From Planctomycetota bacterium (GTDB lineage: Bacteria > Planctomycetota > UBA1135), in assembly GCA_003696625.1 (NCBI GenBank), contig RFGR01000051.1:1-55063 (forward strand): a DNA stretch of 55,063 bases, given 5' to 3'. The notes under the pieces were generated by a model that was not told the origin of the DNA, made no database searches, and saw only the letters and a list, made by a program, of their open reading frames with translations. The position numbers and the translations under genes are program-made. Shown here piece by piece: positions 28,522-40,309 of this stretch; position 1 is the first letter of the stretch, and every line of letters starts with the position of its first letter.

Positions 28522-29748
28522 ATGGGCCGGACTTCCGCCGGCCCTTCGCGGCTGTTCGCCTTCCTGGCCCTCCTCGGCGCAATCTGGGGCGGCAGCCTGC
28601 TGCTCGACCGGAGCCGCCGACCGCAGCCGCCGCGGCCGGGTGGACCGGCCGACCCCCGGCCGCCGGTCCTGCTCGCGCTCGATCGCTTCACCGGCGTTCG
28701 CTCGGCCGGCCTGGGCGTCCGCGGCCGCTACCGCCTGCTCGACGACGACGGCATCGAGCTGTTCACCGGCGACGATTTCCGCGGCGAGCTGGAACTGGAC
28801 GAGGCCGGCCTGCGGCTCGGGTCCTGGCGGATCCGGCGCGATCGCTGCTGGATCGTACCGGACGGGGACCAGGCCCTCGAACTCGAGGGCTCCCGCTACG
28901 CCGGCCGGCTTCGCTGCGAGGTGGACCGGACCGACCGTGGCCTGGCCGACTCCTTCTCCCTCCTCCTCGAGCTGCCGCTCGAGGACTACGTCCTCGGGGT
29001 CGTCTGCGGCGAGCTGCCGACCCGCGCCGCCGGCGCCGGGGAGGCCCTCCGGGCCCAGGCGGTGGCGGCCCGAACCTTCGCCCTCTGGAACCTGCGGCGG
29101 GGGCGGCGGACCCTCCGGGACACGGCCTCCGACCAGCGTTTCCGCGGTCTGGACTGGGTCACGGACGAGGCCCGGCGTGCGGTCGAGGACACCCGCGGCC
29201 TGGTCCTGGTCTGGGAAGGCGATCTCCTGCCGGCCTGGTTCCACGCCGACTGCGGCGGCGGCACCTCCGACGCCGCGGCGGTCGGCTTCGCCCGCAAGAA
29301 ACTGCCCCCCCTGGCCGGCGTGCCGGACCCGGAGTGCGCTGCGACTCCTCCCTGGCGGCGGATCGTTCCGGCCGACGTCCTCGACCGGCTGGCGGTCCAC
29401 GACGGCCTCGGTCGAAGCTTGGAGAAGATCGTCCCGCAGCGCCGCGATCCGGCCTCGGGGCGGCTGCTCGAGGCGGTCCTGGTCGGCGAGGAGGCCAGCC
29501 TCCCCTACCGCGGCGAGGATCTGCGCCGGGCCCTGTCGCTGCCCAGTATGGTCCTGCTCTCCCTCCAGCCCCGCCCCGACGGCTCGCTGGTCGTCACCGG
29601 CCGCGGCCGCGGCCACGGGGTCGGCCTCTGCCAGGAGGGCGCCCTCCGCCGGAGCCGGGCCGGGGTCGGCTGGGCCGAGATCCTCGCCCACGACTACCCC
29701 GGCGCCCGGATCGTCTCCCTGGCCGAGTTGGACCGGGGACACCCATGA
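28522..29748 (+). CDS. SpoIID/LytB-domain cell-wall protein
   Basis: A 408-residue membrane-anchored protein with an N-terminal hydrophobic segment (LFAFLALLGAIWGGSLLL), a Pro-rich linker and a SpoIID domain. Diagnostic parts are LEDYVLGVVCGELP, ALRAQAVAARTFALWNL, WFHADCGGGTSDAA and the C-terminal GRGRGHGVGLCQEGALRR. SpoIID is a peptidoglycan lytic transglycosylase of sporulation, while LytB is an amidase enhancer; in non-sporing bacteria these homologues are wall-remodelling proteins. It lies between ruvB and tgt, where many bacteria keep queA. It overlaps tgt by ATGA. The general family is clear, the activity is not. Confidence 0.9.
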   Translation: MGRTSAGPSRLFAFLALLGAIWGGSLLLDRSRRPQPPRPGGPADPRPPVLLALDRFTGVRSAGLGVRGRYRLLDDDGIELFTGDDFRGELELDEAGLRLGSWRIRRDRCWIVPDGDQALELEGSRYAGRLRCEVDRTDRGLADSFSLLLELPLEDYVLGVVCGELPTRAAGAGEALRAQAVAARTFALWNLRRGRRTLRDTASDQRFRGLDWVTDEARRAVEDTRGLVLVWEGDLLPAWFHADCGGGTSDAAAVGFARKKLPPLAGVPDPECAATPPWRRIVPADVLDRLAVHDGLGRSLEKIVPQRRDPASGRLLEAVLVGEEASLPYRGEDLRRALSLPSMVLLSLQPRPDGSLVVTGRGRGHGVGLCQEGALRRSRAGVGWAEILAHDYPGARIVSLAELDRGHP

Positions 29749-30881
29749 GCCTGCGCTTCGAACTCCTCTCCGGGACCGCCGTCGGACCGCGCCGGGGGGT
29801 GCTGCACACCGCCCGCGGAGCGGTACCGACTCCGGCCTTCATGCCGGTCGCCACCCGCGGCATGATGCGGGGCGTTCCGCATGATCGGCTGCGGCCGATG
29901 GGCGTGGACATGGTCCTTTGCAACGCCTTCCACCTCGCCACCCGGCCCGGGGTCGAGACCGTGGCGGCCCTCGGCGGGGTGCACGGGATGCTGGCCTGGG
30001 ACGGCCCGGTCCTGACCGACTCCGGCGGTTTCCAGGTCTTCAGCCTGGCCGAGACCTGCCGGATCGGCGAGGACGGGGTCCGGGTCGAGGATCCGGTCCA
30101 CGGCGGCTGGATCGACTGGACCCCCGAACACGCCTTCGCCGTCCAGGCCGGCCTCGGCCCGGACGTGGCCATGGTCCTCGACCACTGCCCGGCGCGGCCG
30201 CTGGAGCGGGCCGAGGTGGAGCCGGCGGTGGCGCGGACGCTGCGCTGGGCCCGGATCCAGCGCGAGCTGCACCAGGCGCGGGGCGGCGCCGCCTCCGGCC
30301 AGGCCCTGTTCGGGATCGTCCAGGGCGGAGTGTTCGCCGACCTCCGCCGGCGGTGCGCCGAGGAGCTGGTGGCCCTGGACTTCGACGGCTACGCGGTCGG
30401 CGGGGTGAGCGTCGGCGAGGATCACCCTGCGATGATGCGGGCGGTGGAGGCCTCCTGCGCCCACTTGCCGGTCGACCGCGTCCGCTACCTGATGGGGGTC
30501 GGGGCGCCGCCGGACTTGGTCGAGGCGGTGGCCCGCGGCATCGACCTGTTCGACTGCGTCTACCCGACCCGCTGCGGCCGGTTCGGCACCGCCCTCACCC
30601 GCCGCGGCCGCCTCCACCTGCTGAACGCCCGCTTCCGGGCGGACCGGCGGCCGATCGATCCCGACTGCCCCTGCCCCGCCTGCCGCTCCGGCGTCCCTCG
30701 CGGGGCGCTGCGGGCCGGGTTCAAGGCCCGGGAACTGAATCCGCCGATCCTGCTCGCGATGCACAACCTCCACTTCACGGTCCAGCTCGCCCGCGCCTGC
30801 CGGGAGGCGATCGCGGCCGGCCGCTTCGAGGAACTGCGCCGGGAGGTCGCCGCCGCCTACCCGGCCCGCGGCGCCTCCTGA
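29745..30881 (+). CDS. tgt: tRNA-guanine transglycosylase
   Basis: Exchanges G34 for preQ1 in GUN-anticodon tRNAs, a step of queuosine synthesis. The 378 residues match family length. Conserved parts: VPTPAFMPVATRGMMRG, LTDSGGFQVFSL (catalytic Asp), FGIVQGGV, GGVSVGE, MGVGAPPDLVEAV, GIDLFDCVYPTR (nucleophile Asp) and the zinc site CPCPACR with H in AMHNLHF. The ATG at 29745 shares ATGA with the SpoIID gene. The 3' end overlaps the convergent cstA gene by 25 bases. queA and preQ1 synthesis genes are not in this window. Confidence 0.97.
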   Translation: MSLRFELLSGTAVGPRRGVLHTARGAVPTPAFMPVATRGMMRGVPHDRLRPMGVDMVLCNAFHLATRPGVETVAALGGVHGMLAWDGPVLTDSGGFQVFSLAETCRIGEDGVRVEDPVHGGWIDWTPEHAFAVQAGLGPDVAMVLDHCPARPLERAEVEPAVARTLRWARIQRELHQARGGAASGQALFGIVQGGVFADLRRRCAEELVALDFDGYAVGGVSVGEDHPAMMRAVEASCAHLPVDRVRYLMGVGAPPDLVEAVARGIDLFDCVYPTRCGRFGTALTRRGRLHLLNARFRADRRPIDPDCPCPACRSGVPRGALRAGFKARELNPPILLAMHNLHFTVQLARACREAIAAGRFEELRREVAAAYPARGAS

Positions 30882-32617
30882 GCCGGCCGCCGCCAGCGCC
30901 GGGCGGCGGTGAGACTGACCCCGATCCCGATCGCGGCCAGGATCGAGGCCAGGACCAGGAGCAGGACGGTCCCCTGGGCGGCGAAGTCGCGGATCTTCAG
31001 AGCCAGGGCGGTCAGGGTCATGCCGGTCATCGCGATCGCCGGCAGTGCCAGCGGCCAGCTGGTGCGGCCGGATCGGCGCAGGTAGACCGCGCCGGTCAGG
31101 AGAGCCAGGCCGGCGATCAACTGGTTCGTGCTGCCGAAGAGGGTCCAGAGGGCGAGACCGGCCGGCTTGCGGACCCCGTCCACCTCGATCTCGTAGAAGG
31201 CGAGGAAGGTGATCGCGGCGCAGGCGACGGTGGTGGCGAGGAAGCGGTTGGCGAGCAGCCGACCGAGCCGACCGAGCCCGGGCCGGCGTCCGAGGGCGGC
31301 GCCGATCTCCTCGACGTTGAAGCGGAGCAGCCGGGTGGCGGAGTCGAGGGTGGTCAGGGCGAAGGAGACGACCACCATCGCGACCAGGGTCACGGCCAGG
31401 TCCTCGGGGATCCCGAGCCGCTGGAGGAAGGAGGCCGAACCACGGATGAAGACGCCGAGCTTGGCGCCGAGGTCCTGGACCGCGTTCCAGTCGACGTAGA
31501 CCCGGGCCCACTGGGCGCGACCGCCGAGGGTGGCCGTACAAGCGAGCACCGCCAGCAGGGCGAGCAGCGATTCGGCGATCATGCCGCCGTAGCCGATCGG
31601 CCGGGCGTGGGTCTCGCGGTCGAGCTGGCGGGCGGTGGTGCCGCTCGAGACCAGTGAGTGGAAGCCGCTGGCGGCGCCGCAGGCGATCGTGATGAACACG
31701 AAGGGCAGGATCGGCGGCGCGCCGGTCGGAGCCGGATTGAAGGCCGGCGCGTCGAAGGTCGGCGCGGTCAGAAAGAAGCCCAGATACATCAGCCCGAGCC
31801 CGCCGACCAGGAGCAGGGAGTTCAGGAAGTCCCGCGCCTGGAGGAGCAGCCAGACCGGCAGCACGCTGGCCAGCCAGGCGTAGGCCATGAGCAGCAGGAT
31901 CCAGGAGTCCGGCGAAGGCCAGGCGGAGCGATCGGTGACCCCCAGGGTCGGGTAGCGGTGACCGAGCCAGATCAGGACCAAGAGCAGGGCGAAGCCGCCG
32001 GCGGCCACCGGCAGCAACGGCTTCCGGCGGACGTAGAGCAGCCAACCCGCCCCGAGGGCGACGATCATCAGGCCGCCGGAGGGGAGCGCCACCTCGGGGA
32101 AGGAGGTCTTGGCGGCGGCCAGCGCCGCCGGGTCGAAGTCGGCCCCCCAGGAGAAGAGGATCGAGATCACAAAGACGAAGACCCCCATCGCCAGGGCGAT
32201 GCCGAAGAAGATCAGGGCCAGGAACAGGCCCTTGGCCAGCGGCCCGAGGATGTCCTCGCAGAGGGCGCCGATGCTCTGCCCGCCGTGCCGGGCACTCAGG
32301 ACCAGGGCCGAGAAGTCATGGACGCAGCCGACGAAGACCGCGCCGAGGACCACCCAGACCAGCGCCGGCAGCCAACCCCAGAACACCGCCACCGCCGGGC
32401 CAAGCATCGGCGCCAGGCCGGAGATCGAGGCGTAGTGGTGGCCGAAGAGCACGACCGGCCGGGTCGGTACGAAGTCGACGCCGTCGGCCCGGGAATGGGC
32501 CGGCGTGACCGCCGCCGGGTCGAGCCGGAAGACCCGGCGCGCCAGCCAGCCGCTGTAGAACCGGTAGCCGGCGGCGTAGGCCAGGAAGGCGAGGGTGGCG
32601 GCGAGGACCGGCGACAC
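30857..32617 (-). CDS. cstA: Carbon starvation protein CstA (peptide/pyruvate transporter family)
   Basis: A 586-residue polytopic transporter of the CstA family, whose E. coli members CstA and BtsT take up peptides and pyruvate. It starts LAATLAFLAYAAGYRFYSGWLARRVF and has FVPTRPVVLFGHHYASISGLAPMLGPAVAVFWGWLPAL and LGAVFVGCVHDFSALVLSARHGGQSIG, the most conserved CstA blocks, then about fourteen further hydrophobic helices including GFHSLVSSGTTARQLDRE. It is shorter than E. coli CstA (701), like many BtsT-type forms. The start is GTG. The gene sits at the end of the minus-strand block and overlaps tgt by 25 bases. Confidence 0.95.
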   Translation of the reverse strand: MSPVLAATLAFLAYAAGYRFYSGWLARRVFRLDPAAVTPAHSRADGVDFVPTRPVVLFGHHYASISGLAPMLGPAVAVFWGWLPALVWVVLGAVFVGCVHDFSALVLSARHGGQSIGALCEDILGPLAKGLFLALIFFGIALAMGVFVFVISILFSWGADFDPAALAAAKTSFPEVALPSGGLMIVALGAGWLLYVRRKPLLPVAAGGFALLLVLIWLGHRYPTLGVTDRSAWPSPDSWILLLMAYAWLASVLPVWLLLQARDFLNSLLLVGGLGLMYLGFFLTAPTFDAPAFNPAPTGAPPILPFVFITIACGAASGFHSLVSSGTTARQLDRETHARPIGYGGMIAESLLALLAVLACTATLGGRAQWARVYVDWNAVQDLGAKLGVFIRGSASFLQRLGIPEDLAVTLVAMVVVSFALTTLDSATRLLRFNVEEIGAALGRRPGLGRLGRLLANRFLATTVACAAITFLAFYEIEVDGVRKPAGLALWTLFGSTNQLIAGLALLTGAVYLRRSGRTSWPLALPAIAMTGMTLTALALKIRDFAAQGTVLLLVLASILAAIGIGVSLTAARRWRRPAQEAPRAG

Positions 32618-32627
32618 CGCGGCCGGG

Positions 32628-33719
32628 TCAGCGCGGGCGCTGCGGCAGGACCCGCAGCCGCTCGATCTCGAGCACCTTCAGGCCCGGTCGGGACGAGGGC
32701 CGGTAGCGGCCGCGGACGGCCACCTCGCGGTCGGCGAACTCCTGGAGCCGGTAGCGCCCCTCGAGCGCCAGCACCGGCTGCTCACGCCCACCGGCGACGA
32801 TGACCCAGGGGGCCGCCGAGTAGACCCGCGGCCGGTACTCCAGCCAGCCGATCAGGGTGAAGCGATCGGCCGGAGCCTTCGGCTGGGCGGGACCGCTCTC
32901 CAGGCGCGCGGCGGCCGCCTCGGCCGCCACCGCCTCGCGGGCGTGCTTCATCTTCTCCGCCTCGACCTTCTCGGCCAGGGCCGCGGCCGCCCGGAGGGTC
33001 TCGAGCCGGTCCAGCCCGATCCGGGCCCGATCGACCCGGACGACGTCGTCGCTGGACCAGAGAACCGCGCCGAGGACCGCTTCGACCTCGTCCGCCAGCG
33101 CGGAGTCCCAGGGACCGGCGGCGAGCCGGGCCAGCTTCGCCTCGGCCTGGTCGAGGGCGGCGGCGTCCGGTTCCGGGGCCGGAGCCGCGGCCTCGGCGGC
33201 GACCGGTGCCAGCAGGGTGCGGCGGGCGGCGGCCCACTGGTCGGCCCAGCCGCTCGGTTCCGCGCCCAAGACCTCGAGGTCGGCCAAGCGGATCCAGCCG
33301 CCGAGGCGCTCCGGCGCCCGAACCTGGAGCCAGTCCCCCTTCTCGCCCAGGATGGCCACCTCATCCCCCTTCGCGAACTGGCCGACCGGGTAGCTCTCCG
33401 GGCCGGTCGAGGGTAACGGCCGCGCCCGGACGTGATCCGTGGTCAAGACGCCGCGGGCGCCCCGCCGTTCGACGTAGGTGCCGTACACCCAGACGACCAG
33501 CCCCCCGGGCACCTGGACCCGCGCCCAGGGTTCCCGCCGGGCGGTGATCCGGACCGGGGTTCCGGCCGGAAGCTCGGCCACCACCGGCATGCTCGGGTGG
33601 TGGAAGGAGCGGATGACCCCCTTTTCGGCGGCGATCCGGGCTGCCTCGACCGGCGGCGCGGCGGCGGGCTCCTGGGCCGGGAGGAGGGCGGGGAGACTCA
33701 GAGCGAGGAGGGTGAACAT
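32628..33719 (-). CDS. Exported protein with two SH3-like domains and an OB-like tail
   Basis: A 363-residue protein with a signal peptide (FTLLALSLPALLPAQEPA). Two bacterial SH3-like units follow: about 38-85 (PVRITARREPWARVQVPGGLVVWVYGTYV) and about 95-140 (GQFAKGDEVAILGEKGDWLQVRAPERLGGWIRLADLEVL). A charged, Ala-rich, probably helical middle (150-275) precedes a C-terminal beta domain (FTLIGWLEYRPRVYSAAPWVIV... EVAVRGRYRPSSRPGLKVLEIERL) that looks like an OB fold. SH3b domains usually bind peptidoglycan or glycans. The track frame to 34970 is a shadow; the ATG is at 33719. It ends 10 bases before the cstA start, in a run of minus-strand exported proteins. Confidence 0.82.
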   Translation of the reverse strand: MFTLLALSLPALLPAQEPAAAPPVEAARIAAEKGVIRSFHHPSMPVVAELPAGTPVRITARREPWARVQVPGGLVVWVYGTYVERRGARGVLTTDHVRARPLPSTGPESYPVGQFAKGDEVAILGEKGDWLQVRAPERLGGWIRLADLEVLGAEPSGWADQWAAARRTLLAPVAAEAAAPAPEPDAAALDQAEAKLARLAAGPWDSALADEVEAVLGAVLWSSDDVVRVDRARIGLDRLETLRAAAALAEKVEAEKMKHAREAVAAEAAAARLESGPAQPKAPADRFTLIGWLEYRPRVYSAAPWVIVAGGREQPVLALEGRYRLQEFADREVAVRGRYRPSSRPGLKVLEIERLRVLPQRPR

Positions 33720-33772
33720 GACGGACGGGCCCGCACCGGGCACCTCTAGTCTGCCGCTCCGGTCGCGGCGGA

Positions 33773-35131
33773 TCAACGGGGAGCCCTTGTCTCGTCCTGC
33801 GTCGGCCAACGAAGCTGCCGCAGCCGCACGACCACCTCGGGGTGGAGGGGCTGTCCGCTCACGCCGTAAGCGGCGTAGCGGAGGCGCGGACCGCCCTCGA
33901 CCCCGAACTCGAAGCGGAGCAGGCCGAAATTCTCCTGCTGGACCAGGGTGCCCGGGACGCGGGCCGGCAGCTCGGCCGGGGGCGGGGTGCCGATCCCGGC
34001 CGCCAGCGGGCTGGAGCAGAACTCGTACAGCGGGTAACCGAGATCGCGGCCGACCAGCACCTCGCCGATGTGCCGGTCGCCGCTCAACAGGACCAGGCCG
34101 TCGATCCGCTGCCGCCGGACCAGGTCGAAGAGCCGCCGGCGGTCGCCCGGATAGGCCCACCAGCCCTCGAAGGAGTGATAGTCGGCCAGCACCTGGACCG
34201 GCGAGCAGAGCACCTTGAAGTCGGCGTCGCTCGCGGCCAGCACCTCCTCCAGCCAACGCCACTGGACCTCCCCGAACTGGGTCTTGAACCGGTCCGGCTC
34301 CTGTGCGGCCGGGTCGCGGTGGGAGCGCGAGTCGAGCAGGAAGAACTCGACCCGGCCGCGCCGGAAGCGGAACCAGACTCCGGGCTCGCCGCCGGTGCCG
34401 TAGCCGGGGTTGGCCCAGTAGCGGGTGAAGAGGCCGAGCGCGACGTCGCGGCCGCGCCAGGTCTTGTCGGCGTCGTTCGGGCCGTAGTCGTGGTCGTCCC
34501 AGACCGCGTAGTGCGCGGTGTGAGCGAGCAGCGGCTGCAGCGCGGGCAGCGCCCGCTGCAGCCGCCAACGGCGGGCCATCGCGGCCGGATCGAGCCACTC
34601 CTTCTCCGCCAGGGAGAAGTAGACGTCGTCGCCCAACCAGAGGAAGAGGTCCGGCCGCAAGCCATCCACCGCCTTCCAAATCGGCTGCGACGGATCCTCG
34701 CCCCAGTCGCCGGCGCAGGACCCGAAGGCCACCACCAGATCCTCGGCCCGGCCCGGCGGCGGCGGGGTCCGGAAGGCCTGTTCGTGAACGACCGGCACCG
34801 GGCCCTCGGGGCGGACGATCCGGTACTCGTACCGCCGCCCCGGCGCCAGGCCGGGGACCTCGAGCACCCCGGCCAGGTCCTCCTCCGGCACCAGGACCGT
34901 GCGAGCCGGCCGCCCGTCGTGCCAGCGGGCCCGCACCCACTCGCCGCCTTCTTCCCGCACCTCGACCCATGCCCAGCCCGGAGTCCGGGCCTGAACCCAG
35001 ATCCGGGCCCGGTCCGGGCCGACGTGGCCGACCATCGGGCCGGCCGCCAGCGGCGCGACCGGGGCCGCCGCCGGCTGCTGGACCGGAGACGACCAGAAGA
35101 GCGGAAGGAGGAGGACGGGGAGGGGCGCCAC
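33773..35131 (-). CDS. PhoD-like alkaline phosphatase/phosphodiesterase, exported
   Basis: A 452-residue secreted metallophosphoesterase of the PhoD family. After a signal-like N-terminus (PLPVLLLPLFWSSPVQQPAAAP) comes a Fn3-like PhoD N-terminal domain (VGHVGPDRARIWVQARTPG). The metal-site motifs follow: VVAFGSCAGDWG, LFLWLGDDVYFS, AVWDDHDYGPNDADKTW and LLSGDRHIGE. PhoD enzymes need Ca2+ and Fe3+ and are usually Tat-exported, but no twin-Arg motif is seen in this signal, so Sec export is likelier. The start is GTG. It is 12 bases after the peptidase-like gene and part of the sigma-factor block. Confidence 0.91.
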   Translation of the reverse strand: MAPLPVLLLPLFWSSPVQQPAAAPVAPLAAGPMVGHVGPDRARIWVQARTPGWAWVEVREEGGEWVRARWHDGRPARTVLVPEEDLAGVLEVPGLAPGRRYEYRIVRPEGPVPVVHEQAFRTPPPPGRAEDLVVAFGSCAGDWGEDPSQPIWKAVDGLRPDLFLWLGDDVYFSLAEKEWLDPAAMARRWRLQRALPALQPLLAHTAHYAVWDDHDYGPNDADKTWRGRDVALGLFTRYWANPGYGTGGEPGVWFRFRRGRVEFFLLDSRSHRDPAAQEPDRFKTQFGEVQWRWLEEVLAASDADFKVLCSPVQVLADYHSFEGWWAYPGDRRRLFDLVRRQRIDGLVLLSGDRHIGEVLVGRDLGYPLYEFCSSPLAAGIGTPPPAELPARVPGTLVQQENFGLLRFEFGVEGGPRLRYAAYGVSGQPLHPEVVVRLRQLRWPTQDETRAPR

Positions 35132-35143
35132 CCCTCTATTCTT

Positions 35144-36106
35144 TCAGCGCGCCCGGCCGCCGCTCTGCCGCCACCAGGTCGCCAGCCGGTCAGGCCAGCC
35201 CGCGCCGAGGGCGGCGGCGGCGATCTCGGCGGTCCGTTCCGGCGAGGGCGCGTAGCGGCCGCCCAGGCCCTGGCGGGCCCGGGCGGAATCCGCCGCCAGG
35301 GCCTCGAGCAGGGCCCGGAAGGCGGCTGGCTCGGCCACCAGCCCCCAGCGGGCGAAGGCGAAGGCGTCCAGGGCCGGCCCGTCCTGCCAGGGCCGGGCGG
35401 AATAGGCGAAGAGGGGCTCCGGGTCGGCCGCCAGGGCGGCGACCCGAGCCGCCGCCGCCGGCCGCCAGGCGGCGTGGGAGGCCGAGGCGACGAAACCCTC
35501 CCGATACCAGGGCGCCCAGACCTCGCCCCGGACTTCGTCCTCGACCGCGCAGGCGATGCCTTCGGCCAGCCAGAGCGGGAGCTGGTCGTAGCGGCGGGCG
35601 AGTTCGAGGTGGGACAGGTTGTGGAGCAGGGCGTGGTCGGCCCGGGCCTCCTTCTGGATCCGGCGGTCGTGGCGATAGACGGTAAGGAGCGGCCGGTAGA
35701 GGGTGAACCCGGTCCCGGGGCGGATCCCTTCGATCCAATCGGCCCGTGCGGGATCGGCGGCGGCGACCCGGTCGCAGAGTCTTTCCCAGTTTCGGTCCTT
35801 GCGCAGGAGGACGGCCGGCAGGACGGCCGTCGTCGGCTCGACCGGCGGACCCAGGACGCGGTCGAGCAGGGCCAAGCCCTTCTCCGCCGCCGCCAGGGCC
35901 TTGCCCGCCTCCCGGCTCGAAAAGTCGGTGTAGAGCACGATCCGTCCGTGGGCTCCCTCCCGGCGCTTGAGCCGGGACGGTCCGTCGAGCCAAGCGGTCA
36001 GCTCGGCCTCGAGGCGGGCGGCCGCCGCCGCCACCGCTTCGTCCACGGTCGGCGCGGCCGGTTCCTGGACCGGAGCCGGGAGGAGCAGGGGCAGGAGGAG
36101 GAGCAT
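35144..36106 (-). CDS. Exported gluzincin-like protein with a degenerate HExxH site
   Basis: A 320-residue protein with a signal peptide (LLLLPLLLPAPVQEPAAP). The middle resembles DUF1570-type and other gluzincin-fold peptidases: LLHNLSHLELARRYDQLPLWLAEGIACAVED. The zinc-peptidase motif HExxH is HNLSH here (H162, N163, H166), so the catalytic Glu is Asn; the third ligand Glu in LAEGIA (E182) is kept. Zinc binding may persist without peptidase activity. The flanking pattern (CDRVAAADPARADWIEGI..., LTVYRHDRRI) is typical for this fold. It lies between the VWA protein and the PhoD-like phosphatase on the same strand. Confidence 0.72.
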   Translation of the reverse strand: MLLLLPLLLPAPVQEPAAPTVDEAVAAAAARLEAELTAWLDGPSRLKRREGAHGRIVLYTDFSSREAGKALAAAEKGLALLDRVLGPPVEPTTAVLPAVLLRKDRNWERLCDRVAAADPARADWIEGIRPGTGFTLYRPLLTVYRHDRRIQKEARADHALLHNLSHLELARRYDQLPLWLAEGIACAVEDEVRGEVWAPWYREGFVASASHAAWRPAAAARVAALAADPEPLFAYSARPWQDGPALDAFAFARWGLVAEPAAFRALLEALAADSARARQGLGGRYAPSPERTAEIAAAALGAGWPDRLATWWRQSGGRAR

Positions 36107-36162
36107 GGCGGCGCCCGAGAAATACCCGGACCGCCGGCCGGCGTTGCCCGAAATCCGCGCCG

Positions 36163-38454
36163 CTAGCCCCCCATCGCCTCGCGGAGGCGGGCCTCGATCT
36201 CGGCGGAGCGGCGGTGGATCTCCTCCAGGTCGGCCTCCGCTTCGGCGCCGGCGCCGGCCGCCGCCTCGGCCTCGAGCAGCCGCAACCGGCGCGCCTCCTC
36301 GAGCAGGTTCGAGATCGGGTCCTCCGCCTCCCGGGTCGGGATCAGCGCCCGGGTCCGCTCGATCAGGTCGCGCAGCTCCAGCACCTGCGGATCAGCCGGC
36401 AGCTCCCGCGCCAGCCGGGCGGCCTCCTCCCGCAGTCGGTCGAAGGAATCCCCGCGCGCCCAGAAGCTCCGGCGCAGGACCTCGGCGAACTGGGCCGCGA
36501 CCAGGGCCAGGCGCAGCCGCGGCGGCGCCATCTCGAAGCGGCTCCAGCCCTGGGACCGCCGCAGTTCCCCCGCCAGCTCGACCGCTCGGTCGCTCCCGTC
36601 CGGAAGCCAGCGCAGCCGGACCCGGGCCAGCCAGGGGTCGCCGGCCGCCTCGGACCGGGCCTCGATCTCGTACAGCGCGACCACCTCCTGGCCGGCGCCG
36701 ATCTCGCCGGCGTCGGCGGCGTCGTTGCGGAAGTCGGTCCCGGCCGGGGCGCGGTTCTCGTAGCCGAGCTGGCGCCAGGTGCGGACCGCTTCCGGGTTGA
36801 ACTCGACCTGCACCTTCACCTCGCGGGCGATCGTCGGCAGGACTCCGGTGAAGCCCTCGACCAGGACGCGCTCGGCCTCGGCGAAGTCGTCGACGTAGTG
36901 GCAGGAACCGTCCCCTTCGTCGGCCAGGCGCTCGAGGAAGACGTCGTTGTGGTCGCCGACGCCGACGGCGATGGCGGTCAGGTCGATGTCCCGCGCGGCA
37001 CCGGTACGGATCCGGGCCAGGATCCGGCTCTGGTCGGTCCCGCCGGTGTTGGCGACCCCGTCCGAGCAGAGGACGACCCGGTTCACCGCGCCCGCCCGAT
37101 AGGCGCGCTCGGCCAGCTCGTAGCCGAGCAGCAGGCCGGCTTCGGCGAGGGTCGAGCCGCCGGTCTCCAGGCTCCGGAGCGCCTCGCGGATCCGCCGGCG
37201 CTCGGAGCCGGGGGTCGGCTCGAGGACGAGAGGGGCGCGCTCCTCGAAGGCGACCACGCCGACGGTGTCGTCGTCGCGGAGCTGGTCGACGAGCCGTTCG
37301 AGAGCGCGGCGGACCAGCTCGATCCGGCCGCCGTCGGCCATCGGGCCCCTGCGGTCGATCACGAACACCAGGTTGAGCGGCCTGCGGGCCGGCGGCGAAA
37401 CCTCGCGCGCCTTGAGGCCGACCCGGAGCATCGTCCGATCGCCGCCGCTGAAGGGCGACGGGGTCAGGGCCAGGTCCAGCGCGAAATCCCCCTCGCTCGG
37501 GGGCGCCAGGCCGTGACGGAAGGAGTTGACGAACTCTTCGGTCCGCACCGCCTCCTTCGGCGGCAGGAAGCCGTCGAGCAGGTAGCCTCGACAGAGGCCG
37601 TAGCCGGCGGTGTCGACGTCGGCGGCGAAGCTGCTGACCGGTTCCTCGGCCGCGGCCACGGCCGGGTTGTCGCCATAGAAGCGGAAGAACAGGTCGCGCG
37701 GCCGCTCGTCCGGCAGCCGCCGGAGGTAGTGGCGGAAGACCGCCTCGCCGGTCCAGCGGCGGCCATAGCCGTCGACCACGCTCAACCGGCCGAGGCGGTC
37801 GGCGGCCGTTCCGGCCGCCGCCGGGCGGAGCGCTTCCGGCTGGGCCGCGGCCGCCGCCTCGGCGCCGCCGCCGGAGGCGAAGGACCGCGGTCGGGCGGCA
37901 GCCTGCCGGTGGCTCTTCCGGTCGGCGACGACCGCCTCCCGACGTCCGCGCCGGGTCTCGGCCGGCGGCGGCGGCGGCACCGAGTCGCCGGGCCGCAGGA
38001 ACCGGGCGCCGGCCGCCGGGGAGCGATCCCGATCCGGCGTCGGCGCCGCCGGCGCCGCGACCGCAGCCTCTTCGCCGGACGCGGCCGCCGGCCCACGGAG
38101 GGCCCGGTCGCCCGCCCACCAGGAGGCGCCGGCCACCGCGGCCAGCGCCGCCGCCCACTTCAGGGCCGCCGGCAACCGGAGGAGGCCGCCGCGCCGGCGG
38201 CCGCCGACGGCCGCCGCCCGGCGGAGTTCAGCCCGGCGCTCGGCGCCCAGCCGGGGAGCGCCCGAGGTGGAGGCGCGGAGGGCCGTGATCACGGCCTCGA
38301 GTTCGGCCCGACGGTTCTGCAGAGCCGGGTCGGCCGCCACCGCGCGGTCGATCTCCGCCGCCTCGTCCGGGGTCAGCTCGCCGAGCAGGCGGGCGGTCAG
38401 GCGGGCCTCGAGCCCGGTCGGCGGCAGGCGGTGCGGATCTTCGGATCGGGTCAT
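36163..38454 (-). CDS. Membrane VWA-domain protein (YfbK-like) with anti-sigma-like N-terminus
   Basis: A 763-residue protein. The N-terminus (RLTARLLGELTPDEAAEIDRAVAADPAL) resembles anti-sigma zinc-finger-like domains that hold ECF sigma factors, but without visible Cys/His zinc ligands. A transmembrane segment (LKWAAALAAVAGASWW, 98-113) and a long Pro/Ala linker follow. The YfbK-type N-terminal block is PVSSFAADVDTAGYGLCRGYLLDG. The VWA domain (about 358-535) has a poor MIDAS: LVFVIDRRGPMADG instead of DxSGSM, while T435 (GGSTLAEAG) and D465 (LCSDGVANTGG) remain. The C-terminal part matches the DUF3520-type block (YENRAPAGTDFRND, LYEIE). It starts three bases after the sigma gene, so it is probably its regulator. 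Confidence 0.86.
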   Translation of the reverse strand: MTRSEDPHRLPPTGLEARLTARLLGELTPDEAAEIDRAVAADPALQNRRAELEAVITALRASTSGAPRLGAERRAELRRAAAVGGRRRGGLLRLPAALKWAAALAAVAGASWWAGDRALRGPAAASGEEAAVAAPAAPTPDRDRSPAAGARFLRPGDSVPPPPPAETRRGRREAVVADRKSHRQAAARPRSFASGGGAEAAAAAQPEALRPAAAGTAADRLGRLSVVDGYGRRWTGEAVFRHYLRRLPDERPRDLFFRFYGDNPAVAAAEEPVSSFAADVDTAGYGLCRGYLLDGFLPPKEAVRTEEFVNSFRHGLAPPSEGDFALDLALTPSPFSGGDRTMLRVGLKAREVSPPARRPLNLVFVIDRRGPMADGGRIELVRRALERLVDQLRDDDTVGVVAFEERAPLVLEPTPGSERRRIREALRSLETGGSTLAEAGLLLGYELAERAYRAGAVNRVVLCSDGVANTGGTDQSRILARIRTGAARDIDLTAIAVGVGDHNDVFLERLADEGDGSCHYVDDFAEAERVLVEGFTGVLPTIAREVKVQVEFNPEAVRTWRQLGYENRAPAGTDFRNDAADAGEIGAGQEVVALYEIEARSEAAGDPWLARVRLRWLPDGSDRAVELAGELRRSQGWSRFEMAPPRLRLALVAAQFAEVLRRSFWARGDSFDRLREEAARLARELPADPQVLELRDLIERTRALIPTREAEDPISNLLEEARRLRLLEAEAAAGAGAEAEADLEEIHRRSAEIEARLREAMGG

Positions 38455-38457
38455 CGT

Positions 38458-39027
38458 TCAGCCCTCCAGGGCCTCCGCCGCCCGCAGACGGTCGCAGAGC
38501 CGTCCGAGCGCCTGATGGATCAACCAGCCGACGGTGCCGGCGGCGAGTCCGGTGACCTCGGCGATCTGTCGGTAACTCAGGCCCTCGCCCACCTTGAGGA
38601 GCAGGATCTCGCGCTCGCGCAGCGGCAGGCGTCCGAGTTCGCGGTCGACCAGGTCCGCCAGCTCGCCGGCTTCGACCCGGTCCGCCGGGCCGGGAGCCGC
38701 CGCCGGAGGGCTCAGCCTCTCCCGCCGCCGATTCTCGCGTGCGTCCGTCTTCATCGCGTCGAGACAGAGGTTGCGGCAGACTCGGAACAACCAGGGGCCG
38801 AGGTCCCCGTCGCTGCCGATCTCCGGGGGCCGCCGGATGAGACGCAGGAAGCACTCCTGGACCACGTCCTCGGCCGCCACCGCGGACCGCAGCAGCGACC
38901 CGGAGAAGCGGAGCAGGGGTCCCTGCCAGCGCTCGACCAGGTCCGCGAAGGCCGCCGCTTCGCCGCCTTGGAACCGGGCCAGCAGGCGGCCGTCCGGGTC
39001 GGCGGAAGCGCCGGTCCTGCCTCTCAT
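38458..39027 (-). CDS. ECF-type RNA polymerase sigma factor
   Basis: A 189-residue group 4 sigma factor. Region 2 is seen in LLARFQGGEAAAFADLVERWQGPLLRFSGSLL and AEDVVQECFLRLIRRPPE with PWLFRVCRNLCLDAMK; region 4 is LPLREREILLLKVGEGLSYRQIAEVTGLAAGTVGWLIHQALGRL. The next gene, three bases downstream, has an anti-sigma-like N-terminus and a membrane anchor, the usual ECF regulatory arrangement. The add gene ends 40 bases upstream on the same strand. The signal and regulon cannot be told; a candidate autoregulatory promoter was not convincing. Confidence 0.94.
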   Translation of the reverse strand: MRGRTGASADPDGRLLARFQGGEAAAFADLVERWQGPLLRFSGSLLRSAVAAEDVVQECFLRLIRRPPEIGSDGDLGPWLFRVCRNLCLDAMKTDARENRRRERLSPPAAAPGPADRVEAGELADLVDRELGRLPLREREILLLKVGEGLSYRQIAEVTGLAAGTVGWLIHQALGRLCDRLRAAEALEG

Positions 39028-39067
39028 GTCCGGAAGACGACGCCGGGCGGCCGTTCTTGGCGGAAGA

Positions 39068-40309
39068 TCACCGCCGCCGGCGGGACGCCTTCCCCGGCGA
39101 CAGTCCGTGGCGGGCGTAGACCGCGTCCCGGTAGTCCAGGATCCGCCGGACGTAGGCGCGCTTCTCCAGGTACGGGCCGGGGAAAAAGCTGCGCTTGAAA
39201 CCGTAGACCAGCAGGTCGGCGAGCTGGTGCGGGTCGAGCCGGAAGGCCGCCACCGCCTTGGCGATCTCGGCGCTGACGGTGGTCCGGCTGACCAGTCGGT
39301 TGTCGGTGCAAATGGTCGCCGACAGCCGGTTGCGGACCATCTCCCGGAAGGGGTGGCGGCGCAGCTCGCCGAGCCGGGGGATCGTCTGCTGGTTCGAGGT
39401 CAGGCAGACCTCGATCGTGATCCGGCGCTCGGCGATGTACTGGACCAGCCGCTCGACGTAGGCGGCCCGGTCGCGGATCGAGCGGTCCTGGATCCGGCCG
39501 CGCGAGAACAGCCAGGTGCCGTGGCCGATCCGGTCGGCGTGGCAGTCGGTGATCGCCTGGAAGATCGATTCCGGCCCGTAGTCCTCGCCGGCGTGGACGG
39601 TCTTGCCGAGGAAGGCCTGGTGGGCGAGTTGATAGGCGCGGCGGTGGTCCTCGGCCGGGTAGCCGCGCTCCTGGCCGGCCAGGTCGACGCCGACCACCGG
39701 CACCCCGTGCTCGTCCCGGGCGCGCAGGCTGGCGCGGACGAGCGCCTCCGAGGCGATCCCGAACACCTGCTCGCGCGGCAGGTCCGACAGGGCCTCGAGC
39801 AGGTCGGAGTAGGTCCGGGAGAAGCCGGCGGCGAAGAAGCGCAGGGCGCAGACGACGATGCCGGCGCGGAACGACGGCTCGTCGCCGGTGCGGACCTCGC
39901 GCCGCCGGTTGAACTCGCGCTCGCCGCGCTCGAGGCCGCGCGCCACCGCCTTGAGTACCTCGACCAGCCCGAAACCGGGCCGCGAGTGCAGCTGGGGCGC
40001 GAAGCGAACCTCGATGTAGCGCACCCCTTCGGCCTGGTTGTCCAGGCACAGCTCGTAGGCCGCCCGCTCCAGGCTCTCGCCGTCCTGGAGCACGGCGCAG
40101 GTCAGGGCGAAGCCGCGCAGGTACTCGGGCAGGTCGGCGTAGCGTTCCTTGAAGACCGTCCGCATCAGGCCGCGCTCGCTCCGGGCCGGCAGGCGGACAC
40201 CCCGCTCGGCCGCCAGTTCGAGCAGGGTGGCGGGCCGCAGCGAGCCGTCCAGGTGCAGGTGGAGGTCGGACTTGGGCAGTTCGCGCAGCAGGTCGGGAGT
40301 GAGCCACAT
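39068..40309 (-). CDS. add: Adenosine deaminase family protein
   Basis: Zinc-dependent purine deaminase of the amidohydrolase fold, 413 residues. Ligands and active-site motifs: SDLHLHLDGSLRP (HxH), VGVDLAGQERGYP, HAGEDYGPESI, RIGHGTWLF, EVCLTSNQQT and ICTDNRLVS. The last motif has Asn where the classical form has TDDP, a variant I recognise from actinobacterial adenosine deaminases, so it need not be inactive. Because quinone genes here look futalosine-type, aminodeoxyfutalosine deamination is an alternative substrate; both belong to this family. A TAGAGT -10-like element lies eight bases before the ATG and overlaps one for the divergent HAD gene. Confidence 0.9.
   Translation of the reverse strand: MWLTPDLLRELPKSDLHLHLDGSLRPATLLELAAERGVRLPARSERGLMRTVFKERYADLPEYLRGFALTCAVLQDGESLERAAYELCLDNQAEGVRYIEVRFAPQLHSRPGFGLVEVLKAVARGLERGEREFNRRREVRTGDEPSFRAGIVVCALRFFAAGFSRTYSDLLEALSDLPREQVFGIASEALVRASLRARDEHGVPVVGVDLAGQERGYPAEDHRRAYQLAHQAFLGKTVHAGEDYGPESIFQAITDCHADRIGHGTWLFSRGRIQDRSIRDRAAYVERLVQYIAERRITIEVCLTSNQQTIPRLGELRRHPFREMVRNRLSATICTDNRLVSRTTVSAEIAKAVAAFRLDPHQLADLLVYGFKRSFFPGPYLEKRAYVRRILDYRDAVYARHGLSPGKASRRRR

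Follow-up and report, generated by a model that had tools for sequence, protein, structure and literature searches.

A probable ECF sigma factor and VWA anti-sigma factor pair of Planctomycetota with a conserved promoter-like motif upstream

The DNA analysed here very likely encodes, as its core, an autoregulated ECF sigma/anti-sigma pair, in which a VWA module is the likely sensor and the sigma factor would be released when this module is engaged. The window, i.e. the whole stretch of 55,063 nt that was analysed, belongs to a Planctomycetota genome of 3.04 Mb in 186 contigs (about 90 % complete). Domain identities, the pairing, the motif, the fold and the neighbourhood were computed in this study. 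The order of genes on the minus strand is adenosine deaminase (ADA), ECF sigma factor, VWA protein, gluzincin-like protein, PhoD-like phosphatase, SH3 protein and CstA (Table 1), and the gaps from the ECF sigma gene through to cstA are 3, 56, 12, 53 and 10 nt. Six of these genes, from the ECF gene to cstA, had been placed in one closely spaced run by the initial annotation, which the open reading frame positions and Pfam matches bear out. The ADA gene, located 40 nt upstream of the ECF gene, is an addition to that run and is part of the conserved neighbourhood. The gluzincin-like, PhoD-like and SH3 proteins are predicted, from their hydrophobic N-termini, to be exported. Beyond cstA, on the plus strand at about 28522-30881, a SpoIID/LytB-like protein (28522-29748) and a queuine tRNA-ribosyltransferase (to 30881) were recognised by eye.

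Table 1 Features of the locus in window coordinates
Feature	Position	Strand	Remarks
Adenosine deaminase (ADA)	39068..40309	-	PF00962 E=2.7e-65; conserved upstream neighbour
Promoter-like motif CCAAG-N13-CGTCGT	39037..39060	-	9 nt before ECF start codon
ECF sigma factor, 189 aa	38458..39027	-	Sigma70_r2 E=1e-13, r4_2 E=6e-13, both above cut-off
Putative VWA anti-sigma factor, 763 aa	36163..38454	-	PF12450 4e-17, VWA 5e-14, YfbK_C 1e-27
Putative secreted pseudo-gluzincin, 320 aa, HNLSH...LAEG	35144..36106	-	No Pfam family; fold from AF2 and Foldseek
PhoD-like phosphatase, GTG start	33773..35131	-	PF09423 1.5e-19
Predicted exported SH3b-domain protein	32628..33719	-	PF08239 E=6e-14
CstA transporter	30857..32617	-	PF02554 E=8e-124

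The sigma factor has the composition of an ECF protein, with Sigma70 regions 2 and 4 only and a putative anti-sigma gene adjoining. The VWA protein consists of an anti-sigma region (residues 15-83), a TM helix (96-118), a disordered linker (about 119-222) and a YfbK/ArnB-like VWA module (223-763). The AlphaFold (AF2) model gives the same picture, with four helices at 15-83 and a helix at 96-118 followed by disorder to residue 221 and then the VWA module; the helix at 96-118 coincides with the hydrophobic segment from hydropathy. The first 95 residues of the protein match NCBIfam anti-sigma models, and among 50 N-termini from the phylum these models match 47, and zf-HC2 matches 38. When a profile of the 50 N-termini was compared with the PDB, RslA (E=4e-9), ChrR (2e-8), RskA and RsiW ranked first. 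With a predicted three-helix bundle plus a fourth helix and a profile match to solved members, residues 15-83 are, on profile and modelled fold, a class I anti-sigma domain. The zinc motif HxxxCxxC is absent from the N-terminus of the window protein and is kept in distant members (L134, L137, L143, L151, L152 and L153). Class I anti-sigma domains are known both with and without zinc, and the motif occurs in about half of them and is not required (PMC7406223).

The pairing of the two genes is not restricted to this gene cluster but is found throughout Planctomycetota, in many cases with a 4-nt overlap of the ECF and VWA genes. The association was counted in 66 YfbK/VWA loci of the phylum, selected solely by PF12450; the HMM for the anti-sigma domain was trained on loci other than these. 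An adjacent upstream ECF gene was present in 38 of the 39 loci with the anti-sigma domain, compared to 6 of the 27 loci without it (Fisher p=6e-11). YfbK proteins which stand alone, without an ECF gene, do occur in Nostoc and Bacteroides, as would be expected if the VWA protein were an ordinary YfbK-type protein lying next to the ECF gene by chance. However, the link between the N-terminal domain and an adjacent ECF gene and the match to class I anti-sigma profiles make this explanation hardly credible, and chance adjacency was rejected on the domain association. The membrane VWA protein thus very probably holds the ECF sigma factor inactive, judging from the sequence comparisons. One genome contains a second ECF-VWA pair (L046, G007:C6) without the cluster genes, followed by what by eye are ABC-transporter-like genes. 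In L131, L133, L135, L136, L142 and L155, two YfbK-type genes occur in tandem; the first follows an ECF gene and has a short N-terminus unlike class I, Rhizobium-like by eye.

A further feature of the pair is a promoter-like motif, CCAAG-N13/14-YGKCGT, which in the loci of the family of the window's genome lies between the ADA and ECF genes, only some nucleotides ahead of the probable start codon. The motif occurs in 16 of 16 family loci, while dinucleotide-preserving shuffles gave a mean of 0.04 (max 1); the count is descriptive, because the pattern was first noticed in those same sequences. As an independent test, a weight matrix was applied to 50 ECF-VWA pairs outside the family, and 11 of these, mainly from the same order, scored at p<=0.05 (binomial 3e-5), from which it follows that the motif is not invariant at the phylum scale. 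The conserved position before the ECF gene makes autoregulation of the pair likely, and the short distance from motif to start codon suggests a leaderless ECF transcript. We also considered the motif as a sign of a wider regulon. In the window's genome, the strict motif was not enriched (6 matches compared to 10 for the reversed control), and the scan revealed no second copy that was evidently placed as a promoter, the one before the ECF gene alone clearly preceding a gene start; the wider regulon was therefore rejected.

The VWA module has the domain order of YfbK-type proteins (PF12450, VWA and PF12034 in Pfam), and its best PDB matches include ArnB, the ArnB paralogue VWA2 and a bacterial VWA protein. 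The window protein lacks the MIDAS motif DxSxS, having DRRGP in place of DxSGS, which is intact in those relatives for which the motif could be located, a genome of the same genus among them. Positions 37339-37356 encode DRRGPM, compared to DRSGSM in the same-genus genome, the two differing by two point differences. This may be a real lineage-specific loss of the MIDAS, or it may be an error of the MAG or assembly. As the MIDAS serines are missing from the window VWA, this species may no longer sense in a metal-dependent way.

The AF2 model of the gluzincin-like protein has a pLDDT of 93, and Foldseek aligned it with M9 collagenase peptidase domains, followed by M1 and M4 enzymes. The protein thus has the gluzincin fold, but the catalytic motif HExxH is replaced by HNLSH. 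In all 11 locus-linked domains the position of the catalytic Glu is occupied by N, S or D, whereas both His residues and the Glu at the third-ligand position are mostly kept. HE is present in only one of the 49 matched gluzincin-like domains, in a protein away from the ECF-VWA pair. The change of the catalytic residue from HExxH to HNxxH, already pointed out in the initial annotation, is real, and it is a conserved feature of the family and not a local mutation. With another residue in place of the catalytic Glu, the protein is not expected to be an active peptidase, and it is best read as a conserved, probably secreted pseudo-peptidase; the envelope remodelling proposed earlier loses its support here. 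A two-domain pseudo-gluzincin paralogue, also without HExxH, is encoded elsewhere in the window's genome (G000:C112, L202).

It is conceivable, though unlikely, that the secreted pseudo-gluzincin works not as an enzyme but, comparable to RseB for RseA, as a co-regulatory partner dedicated to the VWA sensor domain. In 10 of the 13 family loci with downstream sequence the gluzincin-like gene comes right after the VWA gene, and the fold has remained intact in spite of the replaced catalytic Glu, both of which would suit such a role. However, gluzincin-like paralogues exist away from the pair, and one of them is in the window's own genome. We regard as rather improbable the proposal of a phylum-wide ECF class which senses by an ArnB/Sec23-like VWA module and in this family has a dead secreted gluzincin as its ligand or co-regulator.

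The wider cluster of ADA, the gluzincin-like gene, SH3-CstA and sometimes PhoD is conserved within the family, so the neighbourhood, whose absence in relatives had been set beforehand as grounds for refutation, does recur. In 13 family loci ADA is the gene immediately upstream of the ECF gene, and in 7 loci the SH3 and CstA genes are adjacent. The PhoD-like phosphatase contains the intact motifs GDDVY, WDDHDYGPND and SGDRH of the PhoD metal site. PhoD is nevertheless the least conserved member of the cluster, found in 4 of the 10 family loci with enough downstream sequence. The suggestion that the VWA protein senses a phosphate state was rejected, since PhoD is too irregular a presence in the cluster. 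ADA and CstA are steadier neighbours and give a hint of nutrient status more than of phosphate.

An alternative, corresponding to the module of the initial annotation, is that the sigma factor drives the whole downstream set (pseudo-gluzincin, PhoD, SH3 and CstA) as one operon. The gaps of 3-56 nt in the window, the gene order conserved in the family and the single motif at the head of the run are consistent with one operon, and a search of the minus strand from the VWA gene to the SH3 gene revealed no terminator-like site, which also agrees with it. The window itself has no strong hairpin between the VWA and gluzincin genes (z -0.7), whereas 6 of the 7 relatives tested have strong ones there (z -2.9 to -5.4), and for this reason the exported genes may not share the ECF-VWA transcript. 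In L047, L051, L053, L054, L056 and L010 the hairpins begin right behind the stop codon of the VWA gene, and most of them have no T run. In several relatives the gluzincin gene, PhoD or both are also missing from the locus, and the second pair of one genome (L046) has no cluster genes nearby. A single operon is a reasonable possibility, for which we would put the chances somewhat short of even. Control of the exported set by the sigma factor gained no support, as no second copy of the motif was found before those genes and the hairpins separate them from the pair in most relatives. It is also possible, if doubtful, that the neighbourhood is a family-level cluster without functional linkage and that only the ECF-VWA pair is a unit. 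The pair is phylum-wide, while the cluster neighbours were absent outside the family in the order-level loci examined, and neither the presence nor the order of ADA, SH3-CstA, gluzincin and PhoD is constant. What speaks against an absence of linkage is that, across many genera, ADA adjoins the ECF gene on its upstream side in 13 family loci and SH3-CstA lie downstream in 7.

Returning to the autoregulated pair with a VWA sensor, which we prefer, we infer the binding, membrane topology, release, signal and regulon as follows. The cytoplasmic N-terminus of the VWA protein (class I, without the zinc motif) would bind the sigma factor and sequester it at the membrane, and the single TM helix and disordered linker would place the YfbK/ArnB-type VWA module, the likely sensor, outside the membrane. 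Engagement of this module by a ligand or partner would free the sigma factor, by proteolysis or conformational change. The freed sigma factor would then start transcription at CCAAG-N13-CGTCGT just upstream of its own gene, resulting in more sigma and anti-sigma factor, and read-through into the exported genes and cstA would be possible in the window, where the gaps are short. Of the module envisaged initially, the sigma/anti-sigma pair, now strongly supported by the class I profile, the co-occurrence of domain and ECF gene and the motif conserved ahead of the ECF gene, and the conserved neighbourhood have been retained, but phosphate, remodelling and control of the exported set have not.

YfbK proteins occur widely, and we found no account of their function. 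In Planctomycetota a considerable part of them seem to be anti-sigma factors; this provides a testable role for the family, and many planctomycete ECF factors thereby gain a candidate sensor. Reporter assays could make direct use of the motif conserved upstream.

The core of PF12450, VWA and PF12034 is common to the window protein and E. coli YfbK, to which the window protein adds the anti-sigma N-terminus, the TM helix and an ECF partner. The E. coli protein is a lipoprotein and is not known to have any of these three. The gluzincin-like protein shares with the M9 collagenase peptidase domain and other gluzincins the fold, both His and the position of the downstream Glu ligand, but differs from them in the replaced catalytic Glu. 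ECF genes also overlap YfbK-type VWA genes on Rhizobium etli p42c and an Azotobacter chroococcum plasmid (by 4 and 8 nt, respectively), but there the N-terminus is short and unlike the class I domain and no cluster genes are nearby. In the literature searched we found no description of ECF-VWA pairs; the 2021 ECF reclassification (NAR), Jogler 2012 and Wiegand 2020 lay outside the search, and the pairs may belong to an existing ECF group. The main text of the class I study (PMC7406223) does not mention VWA. Compared to the class I ECF anti-sigma factors RslA, ChrR, RskA and RsiW described there, the window protein is similar in its helical N-terminus, its profile match to solved structures, its ECF gene adjacency and its single TM helix. 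It differs from them in the YfbK/ArnB-type VWA module, which would lie outside the membrane, and in having no HxxxCxxC, which some distant members keep. Predicted YfbK has been likened to ArnB of Sulfolobus, which is described as acting with ArnA in phosphorylation-dependent control of motility (PMC12852372), where no sigma factor is involved; the window protein and ArnB have a related architecture of VWA, beta-sandwich and helical parts.
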